Positions 13,257 to 60,512 of a stretch of 64,000 nucleotides of DNA are shown here, piece by piece; the stretch's first letter is position 1, and each line of letters begins with the position of its first letter. The notes under the pieces were generated by a model. The model worked only from the letters and a program-made list of their open reading frames with translations, was not told the DNA's origin and did not search any database. The DNA comes from Simmondsia chinensis (lineage: Eukaryota; Streptophyta; Magnoliopsida; Caryophyllales; Simmondsiaceae). Location: assembly GCA_018398585.1 (NCBI GenBank), contig JAGTTD010000001.1, positions 2,482,501 to 2,546,500 on the forward strand. Direction: 5' to 3'. A program made the translations under genes and the position numbers.

Positions 13257-13556
13257 CTCCACAATTATATATAGTAAGATTACATAATCTATAATTGGCA
13301 TAAAGTATATTGATATTACTATTAAAATTATTGTGGTTTTACAATTTGAAATTTGGGTTCAATCATATTATCAAGCTAAAATGACCTAATGTGGTGACTT
13401 TAAGTCGAACAAGCTTGAGCTCCAGCCAGTGGCAAGCCAAGCTCGAGCCTATTACGAGTCGAGCTCGAGCTCGAACCAAGCTAAATTTTAACGAGCCGAG
13501 CCTCGAGCCCAACAAGCTCAGGCTCAGCTCGGCTCATTTACACCCCTAGTCTTAAC

Positions 13557-13876: not shown

Positions 13877-14545
13877 ACAACAACAACAGCAGCAACAAAC
13901 CCAGTGTCTACAAGGGCTCCCGCAAAAGTAGGGTTTGGGGGGTAGATGTACGCAGCCTTCCTCCTTCAGGGGGCTAACCTGAAGAGAGGCTGTTTCCAAG
14001 GACCCCCAACCTGAGAGACTAGTCCGCCGCAAAGAGCATGTGACCTGGCAACAGGAGATCAACAAAGCGATCAAGACAACAGACACAAAGCACACAAGAC
14101 ACAAGACACAAAGCAAGCAGAAATCAAAGGATAGGTAGGCAGGTATGCATGCAGGTAGTAGCTCATGGAAGCAAGAATACAACCTAAGTGCCCCAGAAGG
14201 ATAACACAGCCTAGCACTAATAAGCTAGACTACTCTACTCCAACTCCTCCCGAAGTTTTAGGTGAGTGAGGTCTTGTCGGATCGTCTCCATCCATCTCTT
14301 TTTTGGCCTGTCTCTTCCTCTCCTGCCTAGTGTAGTAAGGGGTTGTTCGCACCTCCTTATTACTCGAGCGTTGTCCGGTCTCCTTTTAATATGTCCAAAC
14401 CACCTCAAATGTTGCTCTCTCAATTTATCTTCAATGGGGGCTACCCCCAATTTGCCCCTTATGACGTCGTTTCTGATCCTATCCTTCCTTGTGTGTCCGC
14501 ACATCCACCTCAGCATTCGTATCTCTGCCACCTACGCCCAATAAC
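13877..14545 (-). mobile_element. 5'-truncated RTE-clade LINE: reverse transcriptase C-terminus and 3' UTR
   Basis: Reverse strand. The frame 14531-14235 encodes the terminal part of a plant RTE-type polyprotein: AEIRMLRWMCGHTRKDRIRN, then HLRWFGHIKRRP and GRRGRDRPKKRWMETIRQDL, a pattern well known after the reverse transcriptase domain of these LINEs. The 3' UTR follows (14234-13900) and ends with GGAAACAGCCTC, GGCTGCGTACATC, GCGGGAGCCCTTG and a TTG-rich tail. That UTR end is the same module used by the SINEs in this window. The frame is closed by a stop just upstream of 14531, so this is a dead fragment. Confidence 0.85.
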
Positions 14546-14559
14546 AGTATAAAATCGAG

Positions 14560-16379
14560 CTCCACACTTGAAGTCCAACATTCTTGATGTAATGCTATCT
14601 TTTTGACAAAAGATTAATGGAAGTACTGCCTGTTTGTGCTTTACCCAAATGGCTCTAGAATTAGGTATGGTGTAGACCATCATATAGGATACAACAGTCC
14701 AAAGTGGTAGAGATCCAGTTCTCGGTGCGTCGGTCCATCTGAACCCATATTTTATGATTAGAGTAACCAATATGAAAATGACCGATTCAAGTATATTGGA
14801 CCCATAAAAGTTCAGATACGGTTTGGGTACTAATATTATTTGGGATATAAAATTTTCAAGTGTTGAACATCTACTCATAATGTTGAATGAAAGACCAAAA
14901 AAGGCTAATTCATTGTTAAAATATAATACAAATATAGCCAACGCATACAATGTGTTTAATTGTTCACATGCTAATTCACATGGACCTTTTATGTGTCCCC
15001 GACCTTAAAAATCATGTATATGATACCATTCACCATAATATAGTGCCAAGAACACAACAACCTTTGGGTAATTTACATTGACAGCATAGTACTACTTTAG
15101 AATCCATGTTTAGCCCGATGAGATTTTCCCGTCGGCATAAATTTCACCGAACCTTTTAGGCCCGACCCACAAAGTCAGAACATACTAGATCCACATATAA
15201 GCCCAAGTGAGATTCCATTCTAAAACTAATTGACTATAGGTGGAGTAACCCATTGGGCTTATAAAGTTATCTCTTCTCTCTCACAACTCTAATGTGAGAT
15301 TTTAATTACTAGGCTTATATGCGGAGTCTCAACAATTACTGTGGAATTGATGACAATGGTACGAGAGATTTAGTGAAGAAGAAGAAGGTAAAGTGAAGAG
15401 AGAGAGGAATGGAGCAAGCAAAAGAGAAAGATAATAAACTTAAAAATAAGATAGATAGAATAAAAATAAAAATAAAAAATCTCTGAAAAAGATACAACAA
15501 TAATAACAAACCAAGTGCCTCCAAGGGCCCCCATCTAAGCAGGGTTTGAAAAATATAGAGGTCGAAAAATCCGAAAAATAATTTTAAATTATTTCTAAAT
15601 TTTCTAAAAGAACAGACAAAACAGTTTTCCAATTTTTCTAATTGGTGAACTCGGTTTTCAAATAACCTTTTAATTTTTCAATTTTTTAAAAATTTTTGTT
15701 TGTGGGCCCATAAATTCAACCATTAGGACCGTTAATATGCTACGTGAGACATGAAACGAGCCATCAATAAATTCAATTAAGTTATCATGTCTTTACCAAA
15801 TTGTTATACTACCTATTAGTATTTTAATTATTAAAAAAAAAATAGTACAACAATACTTGGAAAATATTACCAAATTGTTCGATTTATTTTTCCACATAAC
15901 TTAACACAAAAAAATAACACATATAAAGTTACATTTTTATTTTTATAATTTATAAAGTTACATTATTTGAAGCAACAATACAAATAAAAATACATAAAGT
16001 TACAACCCATACTAAAAAAGGAACGAATAATTATTTGTAGCCTTATTAAAGGGAATTTTATCACTTAGATATTCGAATTTTAAAGAACATTATATAGATA
16101 TCTTAATATTTTAATATATATAATAAGATAATCTCATATTTTAAAATTTTATTTTCTTGGTATCCTCTAGTTGAATCATGATGTGAACTTTTATCAAAAT
16201 TTAGAGAATTTTAAATGCTAACATAGCATATGAGTACAACAACATATATGTATCATGTTAGCATTTTCTAGCAGAAGATACCTAGATAATAGAATTTTTA
16301 AAGTTGAGATACCTTATTATATATTATATACAATCAGGAAACCTAGATAATAAAAGATTAAACCACGTGACGATGATAT
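14560..16379. other. Gene-free AT-rich stretch with RTE tail fragment
   Basis: Apart from the repeat at 15130-15330, the only recognised item is a short RTE/SINE 3' end on the minus strand at 15488-15552 (ACAACAATAATAACAAACC, GTGCCTCCAAGGGCCCCC). The remaining open frames (for example 14510-14950) have no recognisable product and low complexity. Confidence 0.45.
15130..15330 (-). repeat. Dispersed ~200-bp repeat, also twice in PRR intron 1
   Basis: The reverse complement reads CACATTAGAGTTGTGAGAGA, then AAGCCCAATGGGTTACTCCA, CACTTGGGCTTATATGTGGA and GACTTTGTGGGTCGG. The same series of words, on the plus strand, is at about 55230-55400 and 55520-55690. Function and class are unknown; it looks like a small non-coding transposable repeat. 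Confidence 0.6.
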
Positions 16380-16622
16380 CTAAGGGCCTGTTTGTATCAT
16401 TTTCCATTTATGATTTGCAGTTTTATAAAAACTAAAATCATACTTTGCAAACAACTACTTTCTTGTTTTTGTTTTCTTGTTTTCAGTTTTTTCCTTAACT
16501 TGATTCAGCTTTGAAAACAAAGAACCAAAAACTAGAAAAAACAAGTTTTCGAAACCTGGTTTTAATTTTCTCGAAACCCAAAAACCACAAATAAAAACCA
16601 ACACCAAACAGAACCTAAGCGA
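16380..16622. mobile_element. MITE, TAAGGGC-TGTTTG family, copy 1
   Basis: Starts TAAGGGCCTGTTTGTATCA and ends with CAAACAGAACCTAAG, an imperfect inverted end. The interior is made of CTTGTTTTTGTTTTCTTG and AAACAAAGAACCAAAAAC words. Relatives are at 18380-18655 and 59572-59790. It lies just after the stop codon of the methyltransferase gene and may supply part of its 3' flank. Confidence 0.6.
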
Positions 16623-16635
16623 TAAATTCCCGATT

Positions 16636-19600
16636 TTATTTGAGAAACTCCATGACCCAGAAGTAATTGCTAATACAACTACTCAAGTTGATTTTTGAAA
16701 ATCCAGCAGCATTGGCTAAACCTAAGAACTCCTTGTAAGTTCTCTCTTTACCTCCAGGGTTCATGGTCATCATTGACAAGTCCATCTGGGCTATCCCTTT
16801 GGCTGCACTCGTCGTCTCGGGTTCTTCTGGAACTATTGCTTCGATAACGATCATCTTTCCGATGCTTGGAAGGGATGCATAGCAGTTCTTTAACACTCTC
16901 ATGCAGTGTTCATCGCTCCAGTCGTGGAGAATCCACTGTATGTATGTGTCAGTTTAAGGATGAGTAAGAATGATATGAAAACAGGACAAAAAACTGTGTC
17001 TTAAGTACTCATTTTGTTTCCAAAAAGGTGTTGTCTTTGACTTTTTACAAATCTGATATTTATTTTGAGGTGAATAGGGCTTTTTTTTTTCCCCCTAGTT
17101 TAAGTTAGTATACAGATAACACACCTTCATCATAATAGCATCTCCTTTAGGGACGCTTTCGAACATATCTCCACCAACGTGCTCCACTCCTGCAAAGTAA
17201 ATGTTCATATTTTGGCTAAGTTACGGAAACTCTATATTTTTCAATAGTAATTTTTGTAGAAGAATTTTTATGAAAATTGTTTTCAAATAAAGATAGTTTT
17301 GTTCGAAAAATCTTAGTTTTTGCTTCTGTTATATTTCTATTTATATTTGAAAGCAAATTTGTTTCCATGTCAAATACCTTTACATCTTGAAAAAAGTTTC
17401 ATTTTACAAAATAAAAGCTTCGCCAAGCAGGCTACAACAACATTCCCAGTGCCACAAGGACTCCCCGCTCGTGCAGGGTCAGGGGGGATAAGATGTACGC
17501 AGCCTTACCCCATCAGGGTGAGACCTTAGCGAGAGGCTGTTTCCGAGGACCCCCAACCTGATAGTTGAAAGTTATAAGTACCTGAATATAGAGCATGTAA
17601 GGCAATGAGGTTATGCGAAGCATGTATGTATGTAAGCACGTAAGCCCAAGAAAATAAGATTCATAAAAGAAGCAGTTTTCTTTTTCTAAACCCTAGAAAA
17701 GACTTTCAAGATACATATAAAAAGGTTCAGTATATACAGAAAACAATCGTACCAGCATGAGAAATGGACTCTCGTATGACATGGGGTAGATCAAAATTGA
17801 TACCACGAATGTGAGGGTACTTAGAGACGATAATGGATAAGGTGTGACCGACGCCACCACCGACATCGACAAGGCGATCGATGTGATCGAAACCATGGTA
17901 GGAGAGAAGGATCTTCTTCATGAGAATGGAGGTTTGATTGCGCATGCCTTTGTTGAAAATGGAGTTGAATCTTGGATCCATGCTAGGATACTCAAATGCA
18001 TTCATTCCATGAGCTTTGTTGAATGGGATTCCTCCTTCTAATATGGCATCTTTCAACTTGTACCTACATCAATTGTGCATTTCTAAAGATTATTTCTTTG
18101 TAGATATGTACCTAAGAGGGTACCAATATGTTAGCACCGGATCCCATTAGAACTTCAAAGTTAAGCGTGCTTGGATAATAGTAGTACAAAGATGGGTGAA
18201 CTCCTAGGAAATCATCATGTTGCACCCCTCAGATTAAGGGTTCTCAGAAATAGCCTCCCTTCAAAGTATCCTAAAAGGGGAAGGCTACGTACATGCATTC
18301 CCCGACCCTGCTTAGGCGGGAGCCCTTGGGGCACTAGAAATGTTGCTATTTCTTTGTAGATATGTGAAGAGTTTACTATGTAAGGGTTTGTTTGGTATCA
18401 TTTTCTGTCCGTAAGTGTTTTTTTTTTTTTTTTTTTTTAAAGAAATTGAAGAGTACAGTGGTTTAGAAATAGTCTTTTTTTTCTTGTTCTTGGTTGTTTT
18501 CAGTTTGTTTTTTATTTGAATGAATTGAAAATAAGAAACAAAAAAAAAACACTTATTTTTAGAATCTAATTTTTAATTTCTAAAGAACTAAAAATTGAAA
18601 ACAGAAAAGGGGGAAAAAAAAAAAAAAAAACACACAAAGGATGCCCTTAAGGTATCCTGAGGTTTGTGTTTACCACTTAAGTACTCTAATATTTTAATAT
18701 AGAGAGGTTATTGTTATTGTTAAAATATTATCAAGATGGTTTTCACATAAAAAGATTCCAAAAGTCGTTATTATCCTAGCATTAACAAAAAAATTACACT
18801 GACAATAACACTAGTTTGGACAACATAGGTATCATAAGTTTAAGAAATTTCATCAGCTGAGTACCGTCTACTAGGATTCCACAATTTTTTCGAAAGTTGC
18901 TAATATGATACATGATTCTAGTAATATACACGTTAAATATATAACTTATGTTCAACATGCCAGTTACTTGATTATTAAGTCATGATTTGATATATAATAT
19001 CATTAAATTACATGGATTAAATACATTTTAATGGTTAATTATACACATCAAATAATGCCATATATTATAATACACCATTAAAAAAATTCTTACCTGCTTA
19101 CCCACTCATCATGTTAAAATATATCCCATTATTTCTTGTGATAGTTTTTAATAGTTAAAATATTCTAATACATTTTTTTTCGATAAATAAAATATTATAA
19201 TACATCAAACGCAATAGGTAATGTATTAGGTCAAAAGTTGCCGAAATAATAATTAGCACGTTCATGTATTCACTTTACTTGAACAATTAATAACGTAGTG
19301 AAATATAGTTGAATTATTTAAACACATATATAATTAAATATGTAAATTAAGTATATTCGGTGTTGCTATCTTTTTTTCCAATTTTTTTTCAGTTTTCTAA
19401 AATAATTGGTGTAAAGGAGTTAGATTATAATCATTGTACGAACTTTTGTAAGCCAGCTTGTCAATTAGTTGAAAGGATTGTACAGCTTGCTTCGAGCATG
19501 AGGTCAATCAAGCGATTTCCATTAGCTTAAGGAGCGTAAATGAGTCTATATGAACTAATTTAAACTAAATAATGGTTTCAAGAACTAGTTGAATGTCACA

Positions 19601-36458: not shown

Positions 36459-38660
36459 TCAATCTAAACTTGCTATGATTGGTGTGGTACTTGTAAAGGA
36501 GCTAGTGTTGTCGTCGTCGTCTTCATCGCTCAGTGATTCCAATTTCATACAGTCTTGGTTTCTTTCCACTGCAGCGGTCCAGTCCTTCAAAATCACCAAC
36601 ATTTCTAAGGTGGCCGGTGCTAGCTTCGCTCTCTTTGATCCTAGCAATCTACCACCTACATTAAAAACAGAGTCTGATGCTAGTATGGACACTGGACATG
36701 TTAGTATATCGCGTGCCATGGTGTAAAGCACGGAATAGTGGTTTTGATATGATTTCCAAAATAGCAAAATATCAAAATATAGTGAAGACTCCATCAATTG
36801 GAATCTGATCAGAGGTGAACGCAAGTACAAAAAAAGCACATCATATGACGTGAGATTTTGTTTGGGCTTTAATCGGTTAAATAAATCCCACGCATATGAC
36901 TGTCCTTGAGAAAAGGACGAAGATGATGTAGAAAGGTTTGTATTAGTTGATAATTTTTTAGAATAAATGAAAAATAAATTATGTAAATTTTCATCAACTT
37001 TAGCAACAAAAGAATCGACATCAACAGTTGGTAACGTTTTTTTGGTAAAATATTTGGGCAAATAATTGAAAACTCGTAAGTTTACAATGTGGATCAAACA
37101 TGGTGGCAATACAATATGCCAACGGTAGCTCAATATAATATTTTAAAATATTTTCCATTATGGCGGCAATGGACCTCTATGGCATGGGGTTGGAGAAGTT
37201 CTCCATAATCTATGCAACAATATCTAACAGTTTAAATATTACGTGTGGAATAGTTGGGTAATAAGATTAAAAAAATATATACAGTAGCATATTTAAAAAG
37301 AACTAAAAATCTACAAATTTTATTAATTATATTCTAAATCTACATTATCTAAATTAAAATCTCTTAGATATGTATGATTTTGTTGTACAAATTTCATTAA
37401 GACGTCTTTATATGGTATGCATCTTTCTAACATTAAAATTGTCGATGACCAACTAGTAGATGCATCTAATTTAAATTGTTTCCTACGAATGCCTTGTGAT
37501 TGACACATTTTTTAAAATTTTGTTGCCTAATTTCAGACATTTTAACAGCTTTAATTACTTCTCTTAAAACTTTAAGAGAAAAATATAAAAATTGCATACC
37601 ATACATTATCATTAAATGCAAAACATAACAGATGTAATGCAAATAAAAATATTTTTCATTTAACATGGGCCTCAAATATCTAATTAATTAGTTAATAGAC
37701 GCGGCGTTATTAGTAGCATTATCTAAAGCAATGCTGAAAATTTTGTTGTTTATCCCCTACTCACGGCATTCGTTCACAATGACACCTGTGACTGCATGAG
37801 CATTGTTGGAATATTCGAATAGGCGAAAATGAATAATTATTATTTTTCATTATGTAGGAAAAATTAATCCAATGTACATTTATGCACATGTAAGGCATGT
37901 CGGACTTCATCGTTCACGTGTCAGACATCAACGAAATCATGCTCGTGTTCATCTTAAAAATCTTTGGAAGCTCGTTTTTCATATTTACAAATTCTTTAAA
38001 TGCATCTCGCTTCAAAGTGTTTCGAGGGATCCTTTGAGCTACGGAGTTTAATGCGGTTTTATAGTACCAGACAAATCTAAGGTCTTCGTCGGTGGTAAAC
38101 AGCTTTTCACCCAAAATGATGTATCTCATCAATTCGTGTCTATTAGTTTCTTATGTAAATCTGAAGTTTGCAAGCGCACCAGTCGCTTGTTGTACAAGGG
38201 TTTGTTGGGATGTATCCGCATATAAGTCGAGGTGGGATTTTTTAGGTGTCATTGTAAAGTGTCGGTCCCACTACCACGTGGATGGCTGAAGGTTTTTGGA
38301 GGATCACAAAGATTACAATATGCTTTATTATGTTTATGATTTAGTGTAAAATATTTTCATACTTGACTCGTAGGACGTCTATTAGTGATAGTCGTGTTTT
38401 CAGAATCGGGAGCTTTGAATTTCATCGTTGCTGGGACCCATATCACTCGATTCACTAGGATAACCCTGCTCGTATCCGTGTTCGTATTCCCGATTAAAGG
38501 TGTCTGTGTATGGAGGTGACCTGATGGGTTCTAAAAAAATACATTTTTCGGTATTAAGCTCAACTCTTCAATACTGGCTACCAATACCCATTTTAGAGAT
38601 TTTAGGCGGTTGAGAAAAGCTAGAACTAGCTCGACTAGTTCAAGATAAAGATAATCTATG
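36459..38660 (-). pseudogene. hAT transposase remnant
   Basis: Frames on the minus strand, broken by stops and frameshifts. A BED zinc-finger-like piece (KAYCNLCDPP) lies near 38300. MMRYIILGEKLFTTDEDLRF and middle pieces CMRWNSTI-like (LDASTSWSSTILMLER) follow at 38130-37320. At 36780-36600 is MARDILTCPVSILASDSVF, NVGGRLLGSKRAKLAP, the C-terminal dimerisation region with the hAT S-x-F-(S)xxGR pattern. It cannot make an active protein. Confidence 0.8.
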
Positions 38661-38932: not shown

Positions 38933-39675
38933 ATCCTACATACTGTGAAAAGGTTAAAAACAAGGGTTTATTCACGGTTAGAGAGAGGAAAAAAAAACTG
39001 AGAGGTAAAATTTGTAAAGTTTGATATATTAAATTTTAATTATAGTTATAAATTATAATTCTAAAATTCAGCTTAGGTCGTGATTTTTTCCTCTAAGAGA
39101 AGGTTTTCCATATTAAATTTTCATATGTTCGTTCATTAATTTTGTTCCATTTTTCGCTTCCACTTGTATTCACTTTGTATGAATTTTCTAATAGCAAAAA
39201 CACAGTAACTAAATTAATACAATAAATAAAATACATGGATCTTTTGTACAAACAACCTTGTCAATTGTTACTTAACTAGTGTTACTCCGCGCGATACACC
39301 GAAGGTGTTTATATTTAAAATTTACAATTTTATATATTATCATATTAGAACTTTGTTAGAATTTTTCCAAATTATCTTTTATTTTGTTAAAAATTTAGTT
39401 ACAATTTTTTATTTTTATGTATTGGTGTTGCATTTTATTTAATTGATTAAATATCATGAATCTTTTTTTCACTTTTAAATTTTTACTACCTTTCATGTGG
39501 TATTTTAGAATTGTAAGATTTAAAATTTTAAAAATATTAAAGAAAGGGAGATTCAGTAATAACAGATAGAAATATATAAAGATTTAAAAAATAATTATTA
39601 AATTTTAGTATATCACATGATATGATAAATTTTTAAAATTGTGGCAGAAAAAAATATTTGTAGAAAAATTTTGGG
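38933..39675. other. AT-rich flank left of the Mutator-like element
   Basis: No gene is seen. AAAATACATGGATCTT (39227-39242) and ATTGTTACTTAA (about 39263) recur in the same orientation and spacing right of the Mutator-like element, from 52825. Confidence 0.5.
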
Positions 39676-39840
39676 AAATCGTACGGTTCAGACCCCCCCA
39701 GCCCCCCATTAATCTTTTTTAGACCCCTTTAACCCTAAATAGACCATTTTGGACAAAAATGTCCCTCCCACTTCCCCCCCCCCCACCCGTCCACTTTCTC
39801 TCTCCTCATCTCTCTCCTCATTTAATGTTACAGCAGTAAA
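39676..39840 (+). repeat. Left terminal inverted repeat of the MULE
   Basis: About 165 bases match the inverse of 52612-52762 with modest divergence; see the landmarks in the element entry. A C-rich run (39772-39784) lies inside. Confidence 0.8.
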
Positions 39841-40239
39841 TTTAACTTTTCACTGCCCCACCCGTCCACTCCCTCTCTCTCTCCTTCTCTCTCCTCATTT
39901 AATGCAACAATAGTATCTCATTTCTCTCTTTCCATTCTTTTCCCGCCCATTTGTCTTCCTTCTCTCATATCTCATTCTCTCTTCTTTCTTCTTCTTCTAT
40001 TATTTTCGAATTCCCGAGCTCCATTCTGAGCGTCCTGCGTGTTTCCTCATCGTACTTGGGCCCTTGGATAGTTGTTTGTGGTGGCTTTGGAAGAAAAAGA
40101 AGGCTTTGTAAGAACTGGTTTGAAGCATTGTGACATTGCAGTAGGTTCAAGGTTGAGTCATTACACATTTCACGGTTTTCAGATCAGACATTGAAGGTAA
40201 AATGATCATTTAATGCATTGGTTGTTAATGGATCTCTAT

Positions 40240-41990
40240 CATATGAGGTTGGTGTGTTACAAGTCATTTATGGTGTATGATTGGTATAGGTGGTGTATTA
40301 TAATTTTCTTTGGTGTATTTCAACTCATTAATGGTGCATGATTGGTTTAAATGGTGTATTATCATGTTGTGTTGGTGTTTTTCAAGTCGTTAATGGTGTA
40401 TGATTAATCATGCACCGGGTATGATTGGTTTTAATGATGTGAAATCAACTTGTTCAAGTGTGTTTCAAGTAATTAATGGTGTAGGATCAATAATACACCG
40501 GGTATGATTGGTTTTAATGGTGTGAAATCAACTTGGTCATGTGTGTTTCAAGTAATTAGTGGTGTAGGATCAATCATACACCGTGTATAATTGGTCTAAA
40601 TGGTGTAAAACCAACTTTTTTTAGTGTATTTTAAGTAATTAGTGGTGTATGATCAATCATACACCGTGTATGATAGGTTTTAATGGGGTGAAATCAACTT
40701 ATATAGTTATGTTTCAAGTAATTAGTGGTGTATGACTTATCATACACTGTGTATGATTGTTCTAAAAGTTGTGAAAACAACTTGCTTTAGTGTGTTTTAA
40801 GCAAGTAGTGGTGTGTAATCAATCATACACCGTGTATGATAGGTTTAAATGGTGTAAACTCAACTTGTTTAGGTGTGTTTTAAGTAATTAGTGGTGTATG
40901 ATCAATCATACACCGTGTATGATTGGTTTTAAGGGTGTGAAATCAACTTGTTCAGGTGTGTTTCAAGTAATTAGTGATGTAGGATCAATCATACACCATG
41001 TATGATAGGTTTTAATGGTGTGAAATCAACTTGTTTAGGTGTGTTTCAAGTAATTAGCAGTATATGATCAATCATACACCATGTATGATTGGTCTAAATG
41101 GTGTAAAACCAACTTGTTTTAGTGTGTTTTAAGTAATTAGTGGTGTATGATCAATCATACACCGTGTATGATAGGTTTTAATGGGGTGAAATCAACTTAT
41201 ATAGCTATGTTTCAAGTAATTAGTGGTGTATGACTTATCATACACGGTGTATGATTGTTCTAAATGTTGTGAAAACAACTTGCTTTAGTGTGTTTTAAGC
41301 AAGTAGTGGTGTGTGATCAATCATACACCGTGTATGATAGGTTTTAAGGGTGTAAATCAACTTTTTTTTGGAGTCTTTCAAGTCAATAGTGGTGTAAGAT
41401 CAACCATACACCGTGTATGATAACTTTAAAAGGTGTATGATGAACATGTTTTGATGTCTTTGAAGTACAGAATGGGGTATGTTTAACCATACACCATGTA
41501 TGATAGCTTTTAACGGTGTATGATGAACTTGTTTTGGTGTCGTTTAAGTATAGAATGGGGTGTGTTTAACCATACACTGGGTTTAATAGCTTTTAACGTT
41601 TTAAAATGAACTTGTTTTGGTGTCTTTCATGTATAGAATGGGGTATGCTTAACCATACACCGTGTATGATAGCTTTAAAAGGTGTGTGATGAACTTGTTT
41701 TGGTGTCTTTCAAGTATAGCATGGGGCATGTTTAACCATACACCGTGTATGATAGCTTCAAAAGGTGTATGATGCACTTGTTTTGGCGTCTTTCAAGTAT
41801 AGAATGGGGTATGTTTAACCATACACCGTGTATGATAGCTTTTAACAGTGTATGATGAACTTGTTTTGGGGTCTTTCAAGTATAGAATGGGGTGTGTTTA
41901 ACCGTACAACGTGTATGATAGCTTTAAAAGGTGTGTGATAAACTTGTTTATGGTTGTAACGCAAATCATACACCATGTATTCTTTCTTAA
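40240..41990 (+). repeat. MULE array 1: 83-bp palindrome-bearing tandem repeat
   Basis: The palindrome centre CACNGTG falls at 40413, 40496, 40579, 40662, 40745, 40828 and so on to 41907 in exact 83-base steps (19 units), then 41971. Two or more degenerate units lie to the left. The core is ATCATACAC-C-GTGTATGAT; a further GTGTATGAT half-site lies just upstream, giving three half-sites per unit. A 498-base (six-unit) higher-order repeat is visible, for example the TGACTTATCATACAC variants at 40745 and 41243. The array fills the region between the left inverted end and the transposase start codon. Confidence 0.93.
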
Positions 41991-42350
41991 AGTGGTGTAA
42001 TACCACGCTGTGTCGGTGTGTAATACCACGCTGTAGCTGACATGTAATACCATGCTTTGTTGGTGTGTGTTAAGTCATGTAGGTAGTGGTGCATGATTAA
42101 TCATTTTAAATTCTGTAAAATCATTTGCGTTGGTGTGTTTCAGGTTTTAGCTTTGTAGCTTTACATAGACACAGTCTATGTTAGGTGTTATTGGTGTATT
42201 ATCACTGTTAGTTGGTTGTTTCAAGTCAATAATGGTTTTAAACCAATCATACGCTGGGTATGAGTGGTTTCAATGCTGTACTTCCATTCCACCCTAGTAT
42301 GTTTCATGTCATTATTGCTCTGATATCATGTTGTTTTCTTGTTCACAGTA

Positions 42351-44228
42351 ATGGGTGATGTTGCTGTTGCATGTGTTCTGTACGGTGGCCACTTTAAAGA
42401 GAGGGCAGAGTACGTTGGTGGAAAATTGGGTTATTTTTTAGTGGATGAGAAGACCGACTTCGCTGGTTTGCAAAGGACTATGGCGGAGGTGATTGGTGCT
42501 CAGGTGGATGCGGGTTCAAAGATGCATTTTCAATTTCTTACTGGCGTTCCGGCCACGCCCTTGTACGATGTCATCGATGATAGGTCAGTTATGTTTTGGA
42601 AGGCACTGGCCAAAGAAGATAGGGCGAAGCATACTTTGATCGTAACTGTTGAGTCATCCGGTGATAGGAATCCTTGCTTCGATTGGCAACGGACTCCCAT
42701 TCAAACAATTCTCGATGGTGACAAGAACAGTGGCGGTTCGCACCCTGAGGTGCCCGAGACTTTTGGTGGATGTATGAATGCAGGGATGGAAGAAGCAACC
42801 TGCAGAGATGCAACTGAAATCGATTTAGACATGCCTACTGCGACGGTTGCGGCAACAGCAACAGGTGGAGATTGGGAAAATTCCAATCAAAGTGCATGGG
42901 ACAATTTGGACAATATCAATTTATCCCAGGTGTGACCGACTGTACCTGATGCATCACCTCCAGACGGGCACACTTACGAGCATCATAATATTTCCCCTGA
43001 AGATGCTCTGATTGTCGAACCTGCAGTGGAACGGAATGCGGAACCCAGCGGTCAACTAAATGTCCACCTCGAAGTCCAAGCTGCTGGTGATCCTCGTTAT
43101 GATGATGATGCTGGCTCCAGTGATGAGAGGAGCCAAATTGACGGGGTATATGGGCAGGGCAAGATGGTTGAGGATGTTGAAGTGAATCAAATATTTAAGA
43201 CGAAGAGGGACTTGTTGACTAACCTGGCAGTAATTGCGCTTAGGGAAAAATTTGAATTCAGGAGCCACAAGTCTAACAAATCCTTAACGGTTGTTCGCTA
43301 CGCACAAGAGGATGGAGGGTTCGGGCTATGTGTGTAGCAGATGGTGGCTGTTGGATAGTTACAAAACTAGAAAAGAACCACAACCACCCTACCGATCTCA
43401 CCACTGTTAGACACAGGCAGGCAACCAGTTGGGTCGTCGGGAAATGCGTCCACAAGAAACTTGTCAACCTCGGAAGAGTGTTCAAGCCACGGGATGTCAT
43501 AGATGTCATCCGCAGTTGCTACGGTGTCGATATCAGCTACAGTGTTGCATGGAGGGCGAGAGAGTTTGCATACGACAATGTTAGATTGGGTACCGCTGAA
43601 GAGTCGTATGCATTCTTGCCTGCTTATCTGCAAGTCCTCCAACAGACTAACCCCGGTACCACATTTTATTTACAAACAGATGACGAGAGCAGGTTTCAGT
43701 ACTTCTTCATTGCGTTTGATGCTTCACTGAAAGGGTACCGATTTTGCCGGCCTGTTGTGAGCATTGACGCAACACATCTGAAGGGAAAATACCGGGGTGT
43801 CCTGTTCATTGTCGTTTGCCACGATGCCAACCAGCAAATTTTCCCGATTGCTGTCGGTATCGGTGATTCAGAGAATGATGCATCATGGCATTGGTTCCTC
43901 AGTAAGTTGAAGGAAGTCATTGGGGAGCCTATTGGCCATGTCATTATATCTAATAGACACCGAAGCATCTAACGCGCGGTGGAAGAAGTTTTCCGCGACA
44001 CATTTCATGAGCTGTGCATGTCCCACTTGCTGAGCAACTTGAAGGCCAAATTCAAGAGCAAAACGAAGCAGTTGGATCAGTACTACTACAAAGCAGCTAA
44101 AGCATACAACATTGAAGAGTTTTATAGTTTGTTTTTCAGTTTATGTTGTGCTGTAACCGGGGCTAAAGATTACTTGGAAGATGTGGGACTGGACAAGTGG
44201 ACTCGTTCCCACTCTCCTTGTGTAAAAT
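42351..44228 (+). pseudogene. MuDR-type transposase, inactivated
   Basis: ATG at 42351, right after a splice-acceptor-like TTCACAG. N-terminal part to 42932; then in-frame TGA (42933-42935). Reading on in the same frame reaches VNQIFKTKRDLLTNLAVIAL (the plant Mutator DNA-binding domain). A frameshift near 43325 leads into CWIVTKLEKNHNHP. The MULE transposase domain follows: CRPVVSIDATHLKGKYRG, then HWFLSKLKEVIGEPIGHVII. The motif usually written S-D-R is SNR here, so a catalytic Asp is Asn. TAA at 43970-43972 interrupts, after which RAVEEVFRDTFHELCMSHLL continues in frame. The protein ends abruptly at array 2; the SWIM zinc finger expected next is missing. Mutator transposases cut and insert the element DNA. 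The transposase could not work as is. Confidence 0.88.
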
Positions 44229-44234
44229 TCAAGT

Positions 44235-46060
44235 TCTGCTGGTGTAATGGTGTAAACTCAATCTTTATAAGTGTTTTTTAATTAATAATTGGTGTATGAT
44301 GAATCATACACGGTGTATGATGGGTTATATTAGTGTAAAATCAACTTATATAGGTGTGTTTGAAGTAAATAGCGGTGTATGATCAATCATACATGGTGTA
44401 TGATGAGTTTTATGGGTGTAAAATCAACTTTTACTTGTAATATTCAAGTTCTACTGGTGTAATGGTGTAAACTCAACCTTTATAAGTGTTTTTCAATTAA
44501 TAATTGGTGTAGGATGAATCATACACGGTGTATGATGGGTTATATTGGTGTAAAATCAACTTATATAGGTGTGTTTGAAGTAAATAGTGGTGTATGATCA
44601 GTCATACACGGTATATGATAAGTTTTATGGGTATAAAATTAACTTTTATATGTATTTTTCAAGTTCTGCCAGTGTAATGGTGTAAACTCAATCTTTATAA
44701 GTGTTTTCAATTATGAATTGGTGTAGGATGAATCATACACTGTGTATGATGGGTTATATTGGTGTAAAATCAACTTATATAGGTGTGTTTGAAGTAAATA
44801 GCGGTGTATGATCAATCATACACTGTGTATGATGAGTTTTATGAGTGTAAAATCAACTTTTGCATGTATTTTTCAAGTTCTGCTGGTGTAATGGTGTAAA
44901 CTCAACATTTATAAGTGTTTTTCAATTAATAATTGGTGTATGATGAATCATACACGGTGTATGATGGGTTATATTGGTGTAACATCAACTTATATAGGTG
45001 TGTTTGAAGTAAATAGCAGTGTATGATCAATCATATACGGTGTATGATGAGTTTTATGGGTGTAAAATCAACTTTTGCATGTATTTTTGAAGTTCTGCTG
45101 GTGTAATGGTGTAAACTCAACCTTTATAAGTGTTTTTCAATTAATAATTGGTGTATGATGGGTTATATTGGTGTAAAATCAACTTATATAGGTGTGTTTG
45201 AAGTAAATAGCGGTGTATGATCAATCATACACTGTGTATGATGAGTTTTATGGGTGTAAAATCAACTTTTGCATGTATTTTTCAAGTTCTGCTGGTGTAA
45301 TGGTGTAAACTCAACATTTATAAGTGTTTTTCAATTAATAATTGGTGTATGATGAATCATACACGGTGTATGATGGGTTATATTGGTGTAAAATCAACTT
45401 ATATAGGTGTGTTTGAAGTAAATAGTAGTGTATGATCAATCATACACAGTGTATGATGAGTTTTATGGGTTTAACATCAACTTTTGCATGTATTTTTTAA
45501 GTTTTGCTGGTGTAATGGTGTAAACTCAACCTTTATAAGTATTTTTCAATTAATAATTGGTGTATAATGAATCATACACGGTGTGTGATGGGTTTTATTG
45601 TGTAAAATCAACTTATATAGGTGTGTTTGAAGTAAATAGCGGTGTATGATCAATTCTACACAGTGTATGATGAGTTTTATGGGTGTAACATCAACTTTTG
45701 CATGTATTTTTTAAGTTTTGCTGGTGTAATGGTGTAAACTCAACCTTTATAAGTGTTTTTCAATTAATAATTGGTGTATAATGAATTATACACGGTGTAT
45801 GATGGGTTATATTGGTGTAAAATCAACTTATATAGGTGTGTTTGAAGTAAATAGCGGTGTATGATCAATCATACACGGTGTATGATGAGTTTTATGGGTG
45901 TAACATCAACTTTTGCATGTATTTTTTAAGTTTTGCTGGTGTAATGGTGTAAACTCAACCTTTATAAGTGTTTTTCAATTATTAATTGGTGTAGGATGGG
46001 TTATATTGGGTTAACATTAACTTATATAGGTGTCAAATGAACGTATATAGGTGTGGTTGA
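44235..46060 (+). repeat. MULE array 2: 215-bp higher-order repeats of the same palindromic unit
   Basis: Palindrome centres alternate at 83 and about 132 bases: 44309, 44392, 44524, 44607, 44738, 44821, 44953 and onward, giving a 215-base compound unit repeated about eight times. Each holds GGTGTATGATGAATCATAC and GGTGTATGATCAATCATAC words with CGGTGTATGAT. The extra spacer has TCTGCTGGTGTAATGGTGTA. Orientation is as in array 1. The first unit runs directly out of the transposase coding sequence. Confidence 0.92.
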
Positions 46061-46067
46061 CGCAAAT

Positions 46068-46078
<11 letters not shown>

Positions 46079-46099
<21 letters not shown>

Positions 46100-46106
46100 G
46101 GGGGGG
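46079..46106 (+). repeat. Poly-G run (28 bases) at the middle of the MULE
   Basis: Preceded by ten T (46069-46078). It lies at the boundary between the left (+) and right (-) repeat halves. Confidence 0.9.
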
Positions 46107-46275
46107 ATATATCACTGTTCTATAAGAATGTGTGTCGACACACCATCCCTGTGTGTCGACACATAACTATGCATCCCTGTTCTGTAAGAATGTGTGTTGA
46201 CACACAACTCTGCATCCCTATTCTGTAAGAATGTGTGTCGACACACTATCCCTGTGTGTCGGCACACATCATAAC
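46107..46275 (+). repeat. Central GTGTGTCGACACAC palindrome repeats
   Basis: Three units of roughly 60 bases with TCTGTAAGAATGTGTGTCGA. Each holds one or two copies of GTGTGTCGACACAC or a close variant, a perfect self-complementary 14-mer. Another sequence class than the 83-bp repeat. They sit between the two halves of the element. Confidence 0.85.
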
Positions 46276-46795
46276 ACACTTCAAAAACACATCAAACACT
46301 TAGAACACACAATTGGGACCAACTTCAAAACACTTCATTCACAATTCTCATTACACAATTTGAAAATACGTCAAAAGGAATATACAACAATATGAAAATA
46401 TACACTATTGCATACCCATCACATCATTTCTACAATTTTCAGTACAATGATTACAATGTAAATCCTATGGTAATATACAATAACATATACACATCACATA
46501 ATTTTATTCACTTGTATACATTTTCATCTGTTTCTTTCTTCCATGCCTGTACAAGTATACGTAGGTGTTCATCCGCAAATTCCCCATCTGCCCTTGCGTG
46601 CATTGGGAGATGCTGAGTCTATTTGTAAGCAAAAATTCAATAAACTTTACAATAAATATGCCACAATCTGACCCGCAGTTCATAATAATACAGAAGACAC
46701 AATAAGAAATTAGGCATCATAGTAAGTAATGACTATTTTCATCCACTTAATAACCAAAAAAAATAAACATAGTAAAACAGCAATGGAAGTAGATG

Positions 46796-49700
46796 TCATA
46801 CCCCATCTGTCATACATGAATTCCAGACGTCCCAAAAATTAACCATATCTAGAGCATGTGGAATCAATTTTGCAATTGGCTCCACATGCTTTAATCTTGA
46901 TTCCTTGGATGCGGCGGAGTATAAGGAATCAATTACCTCTATCCGCCAATCTTTAAAATTGATGGCAGCAAGGAACCAATGTTGATTAGGTTGATTGATG
47001 GGCATGTATATCCGATCCACGTCGTGGCAGCAGACCCCATATTTAACACCCTGCAAGAAACTTCATGATCAACGAATCAAAATCGGCAAAAGCTAATTCG
47101 ATGGAGATTTCCCTGTTTTGAATGCATTTCAATAGGGGTCCAAATAGAATAGAAACCGGCGGATTTGCGCATGTTGCCCTGTGGTCGAAATGCTCTGGCC
47201 ACTTATGTTTCTTCTGCATGATGTAGTGTAGAATGACATCCATTTCCTACAATATGAGACAAATTACTTCAAACACAACACACACCACTAATCACTTGGA
47301 ACATAGCAACACAATAACATAAGTCAATTTACACTATTAAACCATATCGTACACGGTGTATGATTGATCATACACCACTTATTACTTGAAACACACCTCT
47401 ACAAGTTGATTTTACACATTTAAAACTCATCATTCACCGTGTATGATGAGTCATACACTACTAATTACTTGAAACATACCTATATAACTTGATTTTACAC
47501 AATTCAAACTCATAATACACCGTGTATGATAAGTCATACACCACTAATTACTTGAAACACACTTATACAAGTTGATTTTACACATTTAAAGCTTATCATA
47601 CACCGTGTATGATAAGTCATACACCACTACTTACATGAAACATAACTATATAAGTTAATTTTACACATTTAAAATGTATCATGCATGGTGTATGATAAGT
47701 CATACATCACTAATTACTATATAAGTTGATTTTACACATTTAATACCAATCATACACCGTGTATGATAAGTGAAACATAACTATATAAGTTGATTTTACA
47801 CAATTAAAACTTAACATATACAGTGTATGATAAGTCATACATCACCAATTACTTGAAACACACTTATACAAGTTGATTTTACACATTTAATACCAATCAT
47901 ACACGGTGTATGATAGATCATACACCACTTATTACTTGAAACACACCTATACAAGTTGATTTCACACCCTTAAAACCTATCATACATCGTGTATTGTTCA
48001 TCATACACCAGTAATTAGTTGACACACCAACAAAAAATAATGGGATCCACTTACAGTAATCACACGCCAAATGGATCATGATGGGGAACATACCTCATCC
48101 GTAAGCCGGGCGCCGTTGTTTTTCAACCGATACCAAAACTGACCTGTACTGGTAGTCAAAACAGAGAAATCCATTGGTTGATCCTCAGGTAACTCGAAGG
48201 GGGTCTTCAAATTTCTGTAATATACAATAAGAAGCATGATATATAAGCATCCCATAAGAAAATTGCAATCTGAAAATATTTCCATACTGATAATCAAAAA
48301 GCATAGTGTAAAATCACACTTACTTCTTAACATTTGCATGGAAACTTTTGTAAAAATCTTCAAACTCTTTTTTTTCTTCCTTGGAGGGAGGTTGGAATGG
48401 ATCGAAGGGCAGAACCGATTCTGGTCCAGGATGGGTCATTCTTGCCCGTTTGCTCATACCCTCCGCGGTCCATTCTTCATCTTTGTACTTGGGATTTGGC
48501 TTGGGGTCCCTCCTCTCTTGCCCCAATCTCAAAACTGTCTTGGATAATGTCATCAAGTTTTCAACACCATCCACATGCGTTGACGATGGTTCCTTGTAGA
48601 CATTTTCCTCGTCCCTAGTTGGCAGAGCAAATACCAAAGTCAATAAACCTCAACATGCATGAAAACATACCAAATTGGGACAATAACAAGGATCCGTAGT
48701 GTCTTACCCAGTACGTGGAGGAGAAATAATAATTGTTTGCTTAATTGGGGATGGATGGGAGGAAGGCGATGGACAGATATGTGGGGATGTGGCATGTGGT
48801 GGACGGTCTGAGAGCTCCTTAATCATTGCCTCCTGAGCCTCAAACCGTTGTTCGTACATTTGCAACTGAAGCTGCTACGCTTCAAGTCTGCTTTCGAAGT
48901 CCATCCGCATGATTTGCATATCTTTCTCCATCGCTTCGAGTCTCTCTATAGCCTGCAATATGTCCTTCAAATAGTCATAAACATGAATTTGAATAATATG
49001 GTACTTACAAGGATAAAAATGCAATTAAATAAACACAAAACGAAATGTCAATACCGATTGATACGCCAAATTGGTTGACGTAGTAGATGGTTCCTCCTGG
49101 GATGCCGGCAAGAGGTGTTGAGTTGCCAATGGTTCTAGATCATCACTTGGATCTGCTGGCATTGCCTCAACAGGAGACTGAACCCCCTCCTCACCATCCC
49201 TAGCAAAGGGAATGTCTTGTAGATTAGGCTGATTAGCTTCCGCACTCGTCAGTCTAATCGGTTCGGCATTCAATTGCTGATCAAAGGAAGATACATCATA
49301 TGAACGTTAGTAAAATTACAAATCATAATTCTAACCCAAAAGATATGAAACAGCTAGTAGTAAAACAGTAACAACATAATGTATTATTACCTGATCAAAT
49401 ACCGTTAAGAGTAGAGCGGTGTACGAAACCTTAACACATATCTTCCAGTTAAGGATCCGCCTAAGAGTCTGATTGCCAACCCTCATCACCCCAACCTTGG
49501 CAAATTCTTGAAGGGTTTCCATGGAAAATATGGAAACTATATCATAGAACCCGTGGACGGAGTAGGTCCTTTCTAAACCATGTTGCATTTTTGCCACGAA
49601 ATCCTTGAGCTTCCGCACCAAAAATTTCCAGCTCAAGGATCCCCAAGCAGCACTGTTAAAAGATTCCACGTCGTCCACGAGGGCCAGGATGTTCGAGTCA

Positions 49701-50332
49701 ATGGCTGTTCTCTTGCGTTTGGCGAACAGTAGACCCTTAACCAAGTAGGCAACAGCAAGCTTAACCTGGTCCTCCATAATGGATCAGGTTCTGCATGCTT
49801 CAAGCAGCTGTTGCCTACTCATCCTCCCCCTCATGCCGTACTTGGCAATCAGCCTGTTGGAACCTCCGCGTACATCTTCCACACCGGCATATCTCAAGCC
49901 GGTTAGAATGCAAAATTCCCTCCTCCCGAGTTGAACTAACTTCCCACCAAATGAGAATGATAATTCCTCGGGATTTGGGTTGGCCACCTGGTGGAAAAGG
50001 ACAACGTGAATTAGACAATGCCAGAAGCCAACATTAGTCTCACGCAGCTCAAGCAGATGCCCGACATTGTACTGTGAAACAAGGGCAAGCTATAATGCAA
50101 AACACTTTTAGTTAATAAGGGATCATAAATGTAATAGTAAAAAGTCAACATAATTCATATGGATACTGTGTCAAACCTTTGCTTCGTCGTCCTTCAAGAT
50201 TTCCCTAATCTCTGTCACAGCTTTGGTAGATACTCCCATCTGGTTAACTTGCAGGAATTTCCAGCAACTCCTTGGGAAAATGTAATCAACCTCCACTTCT
50301 GATCGGCTCTTCCTGCGTGTGTAAAATGCCAT
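46796..50332 (-). pseudogene. DUF1985 / Ulp1-like (C48 peptidase-like) gene of the MULE
   Basis: Minus-strand exons by phase: 50332-50177, 50089-49391, 49276-49055, 48952-48708, 48614-48324, 48214-48094, 47246-about 47045, then about 47056-46796. Exon 1 starts MAFYTRRKSRSEVEVDYIFP. Exon 2 has the DUF1985 pattern (RREFCILTGLRYAG and MEDQVKLAVAYLVKGLLFAK, LVDDVESFNSAAWGSLSW). Exon 4 is coiled-coil-like; exon 5 is basic. The end is a C48 fold: MDVILHYIMQKKHKWPEHF, then RIYMPINQPNQHWFLAAI (catalytic His) and IEVIDSLYSA (Asp). The Gln/Cys part of the catalytic set (N-x-x-D-C-G box) is not found. Lesions: TGA 49784-49786, TAG 48875-48877, and a frameshift or unresolved splice near 47050. Ulp1 enzymes remove SUMO; a protein without the Cys box could not. 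Array 3 lies in the intron 48093-47247. Confidence 0.82.
47335..48020 (-). repeat. MULE array 3: palindromic repeat, inverted, in an intron of the Ulp1-like gene
   Basis: About eight units containing TCATACACCGTGTATGAT variants, with ACTAATTACTTGAAACACAC and AAGTTGATTTTACAC, the reverse complements of array 1 words. The orientation therefore follows the gene it lies in. Confidence 0.9.
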
Positions 50333-50379
50333 CTGAAATAAAAGAAAAATATCACAAAACCAAAGATTAAACTCATGAT

Positions 50380-51930
50380 ACACCATTAAAACAAACCATG
50401 CAAGGTGTATGATTAAGCATACACCACTAATGACTTGAAATACACCCAGACAAGTTGATTTCACACCATTATAACCTACCATACACGGTGTATGATTGAT
50501 CATACACCGTTAATTACAGTAAATAGTTAATTTTACACCGTTAAAACCTATCATACACGGTGTATGGTTAAACATACACCACTAATCGGTAGAAACACAC
50601 ATAAACTAGTTGGTTTTACACCATTAAAAGTAATCATACACGGTGTATAATTAATTATACACCACTGTTTACATCAAACACACCAAGAAAAGTTGGTTTT
50701 ACACCAATACAACCTATCATACACAGTGTATGATCGATCATACACCACTGTTTACTTGATACACACTTAGATAAGTTCGTTTTACAGCATTAAATGCAAT
50801 CATACACGGTGCATGATTAATCATACACCACTAATGACTCAAAACAAACTAACACAAGTTGATTTCACACCATCAAAACCTATCATACACGGTGTATGAT
50901 TAATCATATACCACTGTTTACTTCAAACACACTAAGACAAGTTGGTTTTACACCAATACAACCTATCATACAAGGCGTACGATTGATCATACACCACTGT
51001 TTACTTGATACACACCCAGATAAAGTTCGTTTTACAGCATTAAAAGCAACCATACACGGTGTATGATTAATCATACACCACTGTTTACTTCAAACACACC
51101 AAGACAAGTTGGTTTTACGCCAATACAACCTATCATACATGGTGTACGAGTGATCATACACCACTGTTTACTTGATACACACCTAGGTAAGTTCGTTTTA
51201 CAGCATTAAAAGCAACCATACACGGTGTATAATTAATCATACACCACTGTTTACTTCAAACACACCAAGACAAGTTGGTTTTACACCAATACAACCTATC
51301 ATATACGGTGTATGATTGATCATACACCACTGTTTACTTGATACACACCTAAATAAGTTCATTTTACAGCATTAAAAGCAACCATACACAGTGTATGATT
51401 AATCATACACCACTAATGACTTGAAACACACTAACACAAATTGATTTCACACCATTAAAACATATCATACACGGTGTGTGATTGATCCTACACCACTAAT
51501 TACTTGAAACACACCTGAACAAGTTAATTTCACACCCTTAAAACCAACCATACACGGTATATGATTGATCATACACCACTGTTTACTTGATATACACCTA
51601 GATAAGTTCATTTTACAGCATTAAACGCTATTATACACGGTGTATGATTAATCATACACCACTAATGACTCAAAACAAACTAACACAAGTTGATTTCGCA
51701 CCATCAAAACCTATCATACACGTGTATGATTGATCATACACCACTAATCAGTAGAAACACACACAATCTAGTTTGTTTTACACCATTAAAACCAATCATA
51801 CACGGTGTATGATTAATCATACACCACTAATTACTTAAAACACACCTAGAAAACTTGGTTTTACACTATCACGACCAATCATACACCGTGTATGATTGAT
51901 CATACACTACTAATGACTTAAAACACAAGC
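50380..51930 (-). repeat. MULE array 4: 83-bp palindromic repeat, inverted
   Basis: Palindrome centres at 50484, 50556, 50639, 50722, 50805 and onward, mostly in 83-base steps, about 18 units. The spacer words (CACTGTTTACTTCAAACAC, GTTGGTTTTACACCAATAC) are reverse complements of array 1 spacers. It occupies the region between the Ulp1-like start codon and the right end, mirroring array 1. Confidence 0.92.
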
Positions 51931-52611
51931 CGTGAATCATCAATCATCCACCATTTATGCTTCACCGTCAATATCTGCTTTCCACCCCCAAAATCCACAC
52001 AACTTATAGAGAACTATTAATAAAAACCGATTCAACCACCACACACATAAAATACAAAAAAAGCAAGTAAAATATCTACACAATAAAGTTAATAAGACAC
52101 TGAATCAACAACCAAACCAGGATAAAACACACTAACCCTTACTCACAAAGCCACTAACACCAAAACCCTAAACCCTGACCAATACTATGCACTATGTTCA
52201 GGAAATCGTATGAAACAAACGCATATTATACATTTCCCTACAAAATAACTTCAGAAATCGGTGCTCACATTCGGAAATGGCGATTAAATCCTAGATCGAC
52301 GAAGAGAGCAAGGATGAAGGTGTGCAAACAGAGGATATCGCCCGAACACACACCTCTGCAGATAGAGCAGCTAGAGGTTCACAACCCACGGGAACGAGAA
52401 TCGCAGCTGAAGTTAGAGGAGAAAGAGGATGAAAAGGTGAGAGAAAGAGGAGAGAGAGAGTGAACGGGGGAGAGAAAGAGGAGAGAGAGTGTGGCTTGCA
52501 AAACACGTTTGCTTTGGAGGAGAGAGAAGACGGGAAGGGGAGGGGGTAAATTCAAATTTTTATAGCTGTAGAAGTAAATGCGAGGAGAGAGAAGGGGAGA
52601 AGGATGGGACG
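51931..52611. other. MULE right-end interior, possible leader exon
   Basis: No array and no recognised protein. Frames at 52194-52463 (+) and 52506-52291 (-) are low complexity. GAGAGA-rich DNA near 52430-52540 mirrors the CTCTCT-rich 39790-39960 on the left. It may hold the first non-coding exon of the Ulp1-like gene, since that gene's ATG follows an acceptor-like TTATTTCAG. Confidence 0.4.
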
Positions 52612-52762
52612 GGGGCTGCTGTGAACATTAAATGAGGAGAGAAGAAGAGGACCTGTGGGGGGGTTGAAGTGGGAGGATATTTTTGTCCAAAAGGATGTAT
52701 TTAGGATTATAAGGGTCTATAAAAGATTAAACGGGAGTTGAGAGGTCTAAATGATACGATTT
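52612..52762 (-). repeat. Right terminal inverted repeat of the MULE
   Basis: Inverse of the left end. Outward of it, a stretch from 52825 repeats 39227-39275 in direct orientation. Confidence 0.8.
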
Positions 52763-53119
52763 TTCAAAAATTTTCTTCAAACTTCTATAAGAAATATTAG
52801 TTTTGACGAAAATACTTTTAACAAAATACATGGATCTTCTATACAAATATCCTCGTAAATTGTTACTTAATGATGATAATATAATATATAATATTCATTT
52901 TTAAAAAAATGTGTAGAGCACCATCAACACGTTACTCGAGGAGAGAGAGAGACTTCAACGCTACGGAAGTGGGACCCACCTTATTGGATGGACCAATAAA
53001 TTTGCATACACTATCTATAACTGGGCTAACCTCCGAGCCACCAACTTCAAGATTCAATTCCAGTCGACGACGTTGCACAATCCTGTCCGTGCGATTCTCT
53101 TTCCGGTGACGTGTACCCA

Positions 53120-60460: not shown

Positions 60461-60512
60461 CTTTTTTTTTTTTTTTTTTGGAGGGAGGGGGGGGGGGGGG
60501 GGGGGGGGGGGG
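60461..60512 (+). repeat. Poly-T then poly-G run downstream of PRR
   Basis: About 19 T are followed by GGAGGGA and 26 G (60487-60512). Apparently a short open frame results, but it is not a gene. Confidence 0.9.

Follow-up and report, generated by a model that had tools for sequence, protein, structure and literature searches.

A Mutator-like element of jojoba with a transposase gene, a DUF1985-Ulp1 gene and four arrays of one palindromic repeat

Introduction

The element described here lies in a 64,000-nucleotide stretch of the jojoba (Simmondsia chinensis) genome, contig JAGTTD010000001.1, positions 2,482,501 to 2,546,500 (hereafter the window). The closest described systems are Mutator-like elements (MULEs) that encode VANC proteins. 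VANC proteins carry DUF1985, and the tandem repeats that they bind lie in the introns of VANC21 and VANB21 and upstream of VANA21 (PMC5735166). The motif bound by VANC21, YAGTATTAY, is enriched in introns and in intergenic and terminal non-coding regions (PMC5735166). VANC genes that bear an Ulp1 domain (KIU) act on motifs in related elements, and the capture of Ulp1 is strongly conserved in eudicots (review, PMC13317346). MULEs that have terminal inverted repeats (TIRs) and bear ULP occur in melon and grapevine (PMC2528002). VANDAL elements are termed non-TIR (PMC13317346), yet TIRs are counted among the non-coding regions of VANDAL21 (PMC10398659). Targets of RNA-directed DNA methylation (RdDM) overlap VANC targets in Arabidopsis, and TnpA of Spm and MURA of MuDR, both encoded by transposons, reduce the methylation of the element they come from (PMC10398659). 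The way in which a single protein recognises extended parts of its own transposon and removes silencing has been worked out in a few Arabidopsis families.

The jojoba element (39673-52765 of the window, 13,093 bp) holds a MULE transposase gene, a DUF1985-Ulp1 gene and four large arrays of one palindromic repeat. The arrays and the DUF1985-Ulp1 gene form a stable multi-copy design in the host genome. The element is a broken copy of a multi-copy TIR-type MULE family that, by analogy with Arabidopsis VANC, probably carries a VANC-type anti-silencing system.

Results

Structure of the element

A preliminary description, made from the letters of the window, had proposed a single element with a transposase, a DUF1985/Ulp1-like gene and four arrays of one palindromic repeat. 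All of these parts were recovered: the Pfam cut-offs were passed and four arrays were mapped. The element itself also stood, while its ends, placed earlier at 39676 and 52762, are now placed at 39673 and 52765, flanked by the 9-bp duplication. The ends and coding parts are as follows; a slash marks a splice-like junction here and below.

39664-39672, no strand: left 9-bp target site duplication AAAAATTTT, an identical 9-mer at both ends
52766-52774, no strand: right 9-bp target site duplication AAAAATTTT, a perfect match to the left 9-mer
39673-39809, plus strand: left TIR, 79% identity to the right end
52632-52765, minus strand: right TIR, 79% identity to the left end
42351-44221, plus strand: MULE transposase, broken, C-terminus missing
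50178-50348, minus strand: first coding exon of the DUF1985-Ulp1 gene with ATG, preceded by the acceptor-like site TTTTATTTCAG/ATG; AG/ATG in 12 of 12 aligned sequences, window included
49394-50089, minus strand: DUF1985 exon, one in-frame stop
48094-49276, minus strand: first Ulp1 exon and middle exons, one in-frame stop
47247-48093, minus strand: apparent intron of the Ulp1 domain with splice-like sites, filled by array A3 (47310-48030); an array lies between the same exons in 8 of 9 relatives keeping both
46508-47246, minus strand: Ulp1 protease C-terminal exons, with catalytic His, Asp and Cys present

The TIRs share 79% identity across 134-153 bp. The two genes are convergent, with the transposase on the plus strand and the DUF1985-Ulp1 gene on the minus strand. 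For domain scoring, exons were joined, X was put at stops, and the result was scored against the Pfam cut-offs. The transposase domain (MULE, PF10551) scored 71.4 bits (cut-off 27.6), DUF1985 (PF09331) 52.8 bits (cut-off 35.1), and the Ulp1 domain (Peptidase_C48, PF02902; 46508-48216, minus strand) 62.1 bits (cut-off 20.7). The window copy is defective, with two stops and one frameshift in the transposase and two in-frame stops in the DUF1985-Ulp1 gene, as its exons are read.

Position and sequence of the arrays

The four arrays, A1 to A4, total 5,747 bp, or 43.9% of the element; the earlier estimate had been over 40%. They are listed with the splice-like sites near the outer two.

40396-42068, plus strand: array A1, 83-bp palindromic units of the outer type, with degenerate units from near 40248
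44228-46033, plus strand: array A2, higher-order units of 215/429 bp, adjoining the truncated transposase
47310-48030, minus strand: array A3, inside the apparent Ulp1 intron
50405-51951, minus strand: array A4, outer unit type, between the ATG of the DUF1985 gene and the right TIR
40187-40204, plus strand: donor-like site GAAG/GTAAAA of a putative transposase leader intron; GT kept in 8 of 9 alignable relatives
42334-42354, plus strand: acceptor-like site TTGTTCACAG/TAATG(G) before the transposase ATG; AG kept in 10 of 10 aligned sequences, window included
51955-51974, minus strand: donor-like site GACG/GTGAAG of a putative DUF1985 leader intron; GT kept in 4 of 4 alignable relatives

The 83-bp unit is composed of the palindrome GTGTATGATCAATCATACAC, one base, GTGTATGAT, and then GTGTAAAATCA and GTGTGTTTCA blocks. 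All 59 sites of the palindrome in the window (at most 4 mismatches) lie inside the four arrays. The arrays hold 114 copies of the GTGTATGAT motif, and the remainder of the 64 kb holds a single one, at the fringe of A1. With one mismatch allowed, it is found 177 times in the arrays, 9 times in other non-coding DNA of the element, 26 times outside the element, and not at all in the exons (4,210 bp). The same restriction to non-coding DNA is seen in six relatives, whose array spans (44,380 bp) contain GTGTATGAT 725 times and whose coding spans (26,052 bp) do not contain it.

Mapping placed an array between the start codon and the element end in both genes, in mirrored order, as had been proposed. 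Each outer array lies between a GT that resembles a donor site, close to the TIR, and an AG that resembles an acceptor site, immediately ahead of the ATG. As both sites are conserved, A1 most likely occupies a 5' leader intron of the transposase gene, and A4 one of the DUF1985 gene. The left donor-like site has GC in place of GT in one relative (c6), the exception among the nine alignable ones. The acceptor alignments hold the window and relatives, with the divergent loci L033-L036 left out. The intron filled by A3 is flanked by Ulp1 exons ending in ARLTDE and beginning with EMDVIL.

A1 and A4 are inverted copies with about 76-78% identity. In a tree of the window units, those of A2 form their own clade (100/99), and those of A1 and A4 interleave. 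Across copies, the inner arrays (A2 and A3) share the unit type GACTTATC and the outer arrays (A1 and A4) share GATCAATC. A second palindromic repeat, TGTGTGTCGACACACA, with units of about 41 bp, is located at 46120-46311 between the convergent genes, and near the same place in relatives c8, c17, and c32a.

Copies in the host genome

The 831-Mb host genome was searched for both genes. The transposase DNA search gave 503 candidates, of which 40 were scored; the ten best rows other than the window were taken as whole relatives. The PF09331 search gave 521 candidates. All 150 scored places exceed the cut-off, and 124 of these 150 listed places have a stop-free matched stretch, as counted from the list. 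Among 101 listed transposase places, at least 33 are followed, 5.4-9.7 kb downstream, by a DUF1985 place on the other strand, with 0.05 expected by chance; no other arrangement of the two within 15 kb was found among them.

The preliminary description had suggested a search for intact relatives with the same repeat; palindrome arrays are present in 10 of 10 whole relatives. A1 is present in nine and absent in c8, which is also without the transposase start. An array lies between the two Ulp1 exons in 8 of the 9 relatives that keep both; it is absent in c35, and c15a is without that part. All seven whole relatives that could be checked (c8, c15a, c32b, c29, c6, c15b, and c35) carry an array upstream of DUF1985. 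This count leaves out c32a and c13, whose sequence ended before that stretch. In c17 the DUF1985 exon is lost and the outer array is kept. The array upstream of DUF1985 in c35 begins with a short stretch of the 83-bp type and continues as a long one of the 174-bp type. Array orientation matches the adjacent gene in 9 of 9 cases for A1, 7 of 8 for A3, and 7 of 8 for A4 (remainder unclear). A2 is plus-sense in 7 of 10 relatives and is minus, unclear, or absent in the others. Five relatives were tested for 9-bp duplications at both ends; these are perfect in c15a, c6, and c35 and not in c29 and c15b.

The transposase C-terminus is absent from the window copy and kept in 10 of 10 whole relatives, and A2 begins about 2.2-2.9 kb further downstream in the seven relatives with a plus-sense A2. 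A2 therefore adjoins the transposase in the window because this copy has deleted the C-terminus. An ordinary transposase intron was considered for A2 and ruled out, as relatives read through that point.

Several copies have additional sequence. In c13 (loci L015/L016), the Ulp1-intron array is enlarged to 56 palindrome sites over about 4.8 kb, at 13246-18057 of the joined 20 kb. In the gap between transposase and Ulp1, c8 (L011/L012) and c32a (L010) carry the first Ulp1 exon a second time, on the plus strand, flanked by two plus-sense arrays and with 64-65% protein identity; this copy is perhaps a relic of a third gene or an inverted duplication. Also in c32a, open frames between arrays (13456-15690 of the joined copy) appear hAT-like by eye.

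TnpA binds subterminal repeats. The arrays could likewise be transposase binding sites, like CACTA subterminal repeats, and serve transposition or transposase autoregulation. A1 and A4 are indeed subterminal and mirrored, and Spm TnpA and MuDR MURA lower methylation of their own elements (PMC10398659). A3, in contrast, is located mid-element in an intron of the other gene, where large arrays persist in relatives with up to 56 sites, and the repeat-binding protein of VANDALs is the DUF1985 protein (PMC5735166). Binding by the transposase is considered quite unlikely as the purpose of the arrays.

Divergent loci

Eight more DUF1985 loci (L029-L036), with 66-86% protein identity to the window, were picked from the 150 rows mainly by unusual score or length, not at random. 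Three of these (L033, L034, and L035) match the window protein in pieces and are therefore partly frame-shifted or diverged. A tandem array lies upstream of DUF1985 in all eight. Six (L029, L031, L032, L034, L035, and L036) have the 83-bp unit with the same palindrome, although the third block is changed in L034. The unit of L033 is 174 bp long with one palindrome site left. The array of L030 (1969-2170, gene orientation) contains bare palindromes of the GTGTATGATGAATCACACACC type every 21 bp, without the other blocks, and is possibly an ancestral or minimal form of the 83-bp unit.

A relative with the same protein and no array, which would have spoken against the proposal in the preliminary description, was looked for and not encountered. 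The stretch upstream of DUF1985 holds a tandem array in 15 of 15 relatives in which it and the exon were both read, made up of the seven whole copies and the eight divergent loci.

Coding sequences

The ratio of nonsynonymous to synonymous substitution (dN/dS) for DUF1985 has a median of 0.39 over 78 pairs, and the six deepest pairs (dS 0.68-0.80) give 0.22-0.45. This shows purifying selection on DUF1985. The median for the transposase part is 0.42 (55 pairs), and 9 of the 11 transposase parts compared contain at least one stop.

Against a set of 5.8 billion proteins, the joined DUF1985-Ulp1 protein had no match at E of 0.001 or below. The transposase piece matched 64 proteins in the same set, 47 of them named Ulmus minor, with a best identity of 68%. 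A genome search with the elm transposase P0003 found places that include this MULE family. Compared by sequence with solved structures, the Ulp1 part had 9 weak matches (best E 0.00075), mostly to Ulp1-type proteases. An AlphaFold model of the DUF1985 exon alone was discarded (mean pLDDT 37.6).

Spacing and conservation of the motifs

The GTGT blocks of the unit start at 0, 21, 41-42, and 62, or about every 20.75 bp (83/4), which is two helical turns. The probability that four motifs placed at random match this phase is approximately 8e-5, a figure chosen post hoc with the unit already seen. The four arrays contain 483 GTGTR pairs at distances of 12-70 bp, and 404 of them fall within 1.3 bp of multiples of 20.75, against 65.5 expected if uniform; tandem pairs are non-independent. 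Whole-array periodicity peaks at 20.75 in A1 and A4. A2 and A3, whose units carry insertions, drift out of this phase, with best periods of 21.5 and 10.35. A 2022 paper in EMBO J reportedly gives motif sequence, density, and helical periodicity as determinants; if so, that mechanism would predict a phase such as the 20.75 bp seen here.

Motif blocks, which were picked after the units were seen, are more conserved than spacers, both between the window arrays (0.856 versus 0.652, 44 units) and between loci (0.827 versus 0.711, 218 sampled units from 14 loci). Both comparisons rank 1 of 83 circular shifts. Intron 1 (86 nt) has 84-92% identity between the window and L029-L032, and the unit consensus is similar at 73-76 of 83 (three loci with the 83-bp unit). 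Conservation of the arrays far above that of neutral DNA was considered and not upheld, as intron 1 is similarly conserved.

This last result fits arrays that are passively expanding minisatellites, settled in introns and without binding function. Copies differ widely in array size and in higher-order units (periods of 21, 83, 166, 174, 215, and 249), and the 21-bp phase could stem from four 21-bp repeats forming the 83-bp unit, as the L030 array suggests. Passive expansion is nevertheless considered unlikely. From copy to copy the arrays keep their positions and, for the most part, their sense orientation, the motif blocks are conserved above the spacers, a tandem array is upstream of DUF1985 in every one of the 15 relatives checked, and the same palindrome is found in 6 of the 8 divergent loci.

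Other features of the window

A fragment of a hAT C-terminal dimerisation domain (PF05699, 69.7 bits) is located outside the element at 36459-37133 on the minus strand. The window has three runs of 26-30 G (13231-13256, 46079-46106, and 60483-60512), of which the second is inside the element at the end of A2.

Discussion

By analogy with Arabidopsis VANC, the arrays would be binding sites for the protein of the second gene. The DUF1985-Ulp1 protein of family members would bind the GTGTATGAT/ATCATACAC motif, which is repeated in the putative leader introns of both genes, the Ulp1 intron, and the intergenic region. The motif spacing of approximately 20.75 bp would allow many molecules to dock on one face of the DNA. 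Docked molecules may then clear methylation from the introns beside both promoters, and the cleared introns would permit expression of the transposase and of the DUF1985-Ulp1 protein itself. Any part played by the Ulp1 protease would likewise be modeled on the Arabidopsis system. Observations in favour are the anatomy, the retention of this layout among copies, the confinement of the motif to non-coding DNA, its near-20.75-bp phase, the conservation of motif blocks above spacers, and the purifying selection on DUF1985.

In a more specific form of this proposal, the palindromes would serve as a scaffold with helical phasing. DUF1985-Ulp1, as dimers or oligomers, would coat the leader-intron arrays, with their dozens of palindromes, on one face, and the introns by both promoters would be protected and methylation-free. 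Tethered Ulp1 would remove SUMO from silencing factors, and the outer and inner unit types would have distinct jobs. This form is tentative, and is possible rather than probable.

Several observations weigh against an anti-silencing system of the VANC type. The palindrome is constant across the sampled proteins, which are 66-100% identical, and no co-evolution of motif and protein is seen over this range; only secondary blocks and unit lengths vary. L033 and the 174-bp stretch of the c35 array retain few palindromes, and the unit consensus is not more conserved than intron 1 (window versus L029-L032). At least one stop is present in 9 of the 13 DUF1985 exons compared. Ulp1 catalytic residues are intact in the window and some copies and missing in several others: c8 and c32b have lost the His, and c17, c35, and c29 the Cys. 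Finally, A1-A3 are CpG-poor, with an observed/expected ratio of 0.40-0.58 versus 0.71 for the rest of the window, as if often methylated, although motif composition confounds this comparison.

The CpG depletion is also a point for a different role, in which the main effect of the arrays would be to supply host silencing. Double-stranded RNA and 24-nt small interfering RNA would arise from the inverted arrays and the convergent genes. The inverted relationship of A1 and A4, at about 76-78% identity, agrees with this, as does the overlap of RdDM and VANC targets in Arabidopsis (PMC10398659). It leaves unexplained both the two-turn phasing and the retention of arrays in a many-copy family, and such silencing may coexist with a VANC-type system. 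As the chief role of the arrays, it is very improbable.

Candidate copies of the family number in the hundreds, the palindrome is exact, the phase is very close to 20.75 bp, and units of 21, 83, 174, and 215 bp occur as natural variants. Motif sequence, density, and helical phase could thus be tested directly. The family would also offer a candidate sequence-specific demethylation tool outside Brassicaceae.

Comparison with known systems

Spm TnpA and MuDR MURA are alike in that a transposon protein is tied to lower methylation of its own element (PMC10398659). They differ from the DUF1985-Ulp1 protein in belonging to other protein families. Neither Spm nor MuDR is known to have large arrays in introns.

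KAONASHI/KIU elements are alike in having an Ulp1 domain gene reverse to the transposase (PMC13317346; ULP-MULEs, PMC2528002). They are described as non-TIR MULEs (KI-MULEs), whereas the jojoba element has TIRs (134-153 bp, 79%). Palindromic arrays are unmentioned in the accessible parts of the KI-MULE accounts (PMC13317346, PMC2528002). No description of an 83-bp palindromic array in a MULE was found in titles and abstract openings, in a search mostly without subscription papers.

VANDAL21 and VANDAL6, with VANC21 and VANC6, share with the jojoba element a MULE transposase and a DUF1985 protein, a short tandem motif in VANC-gene introns and upstream of the transposase, mainly in non-coding DNA, and rapid gain and loss of repeats (PMC5735166). 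The comparison with VANDAL and VANC in the preliminary description thus holds for the layout (DUF1985 in VANC, repeats in introns and upstream of the transposase, PMC5735166); the idea itself was already published for Ulp1-bearing VANC genes (PMC13317346). The published VANC motifs YAGTATTAY and AGTTGTMC are absent from the 13,093 bp of the jojoba element, which has instead the GTGTATGAT motif in a compound 83-bp palindromic unit. It further differs in its long TIRs and its Ulp1 domain, and its arrays make up 43.9% of its length.

Three features of VANC-encoding MULEs are found here: a Mutator-like transposase, a DUF1985 gene, and a tandem motif in non-coding DNA, with intron status taken from splice-like sites. 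In such MULEs the motif also changes together with the VANC protein between families, whereas the sampled jojoba proteins, 66-100% identical, go with one palindrome. Binding of the motif and removal of methylation from the element itself would be expected of the jojoba protein by analogy. The non-TIR state of VANDAL proper and of KAONASHI/KIU is not found here. Because of the long TIRs, the element is not filed as a VANDAL proper. It is most likely an array-rich new member of the published VANC-type kind of MULE, linked to VANC proteins by Pfam domain and layout.

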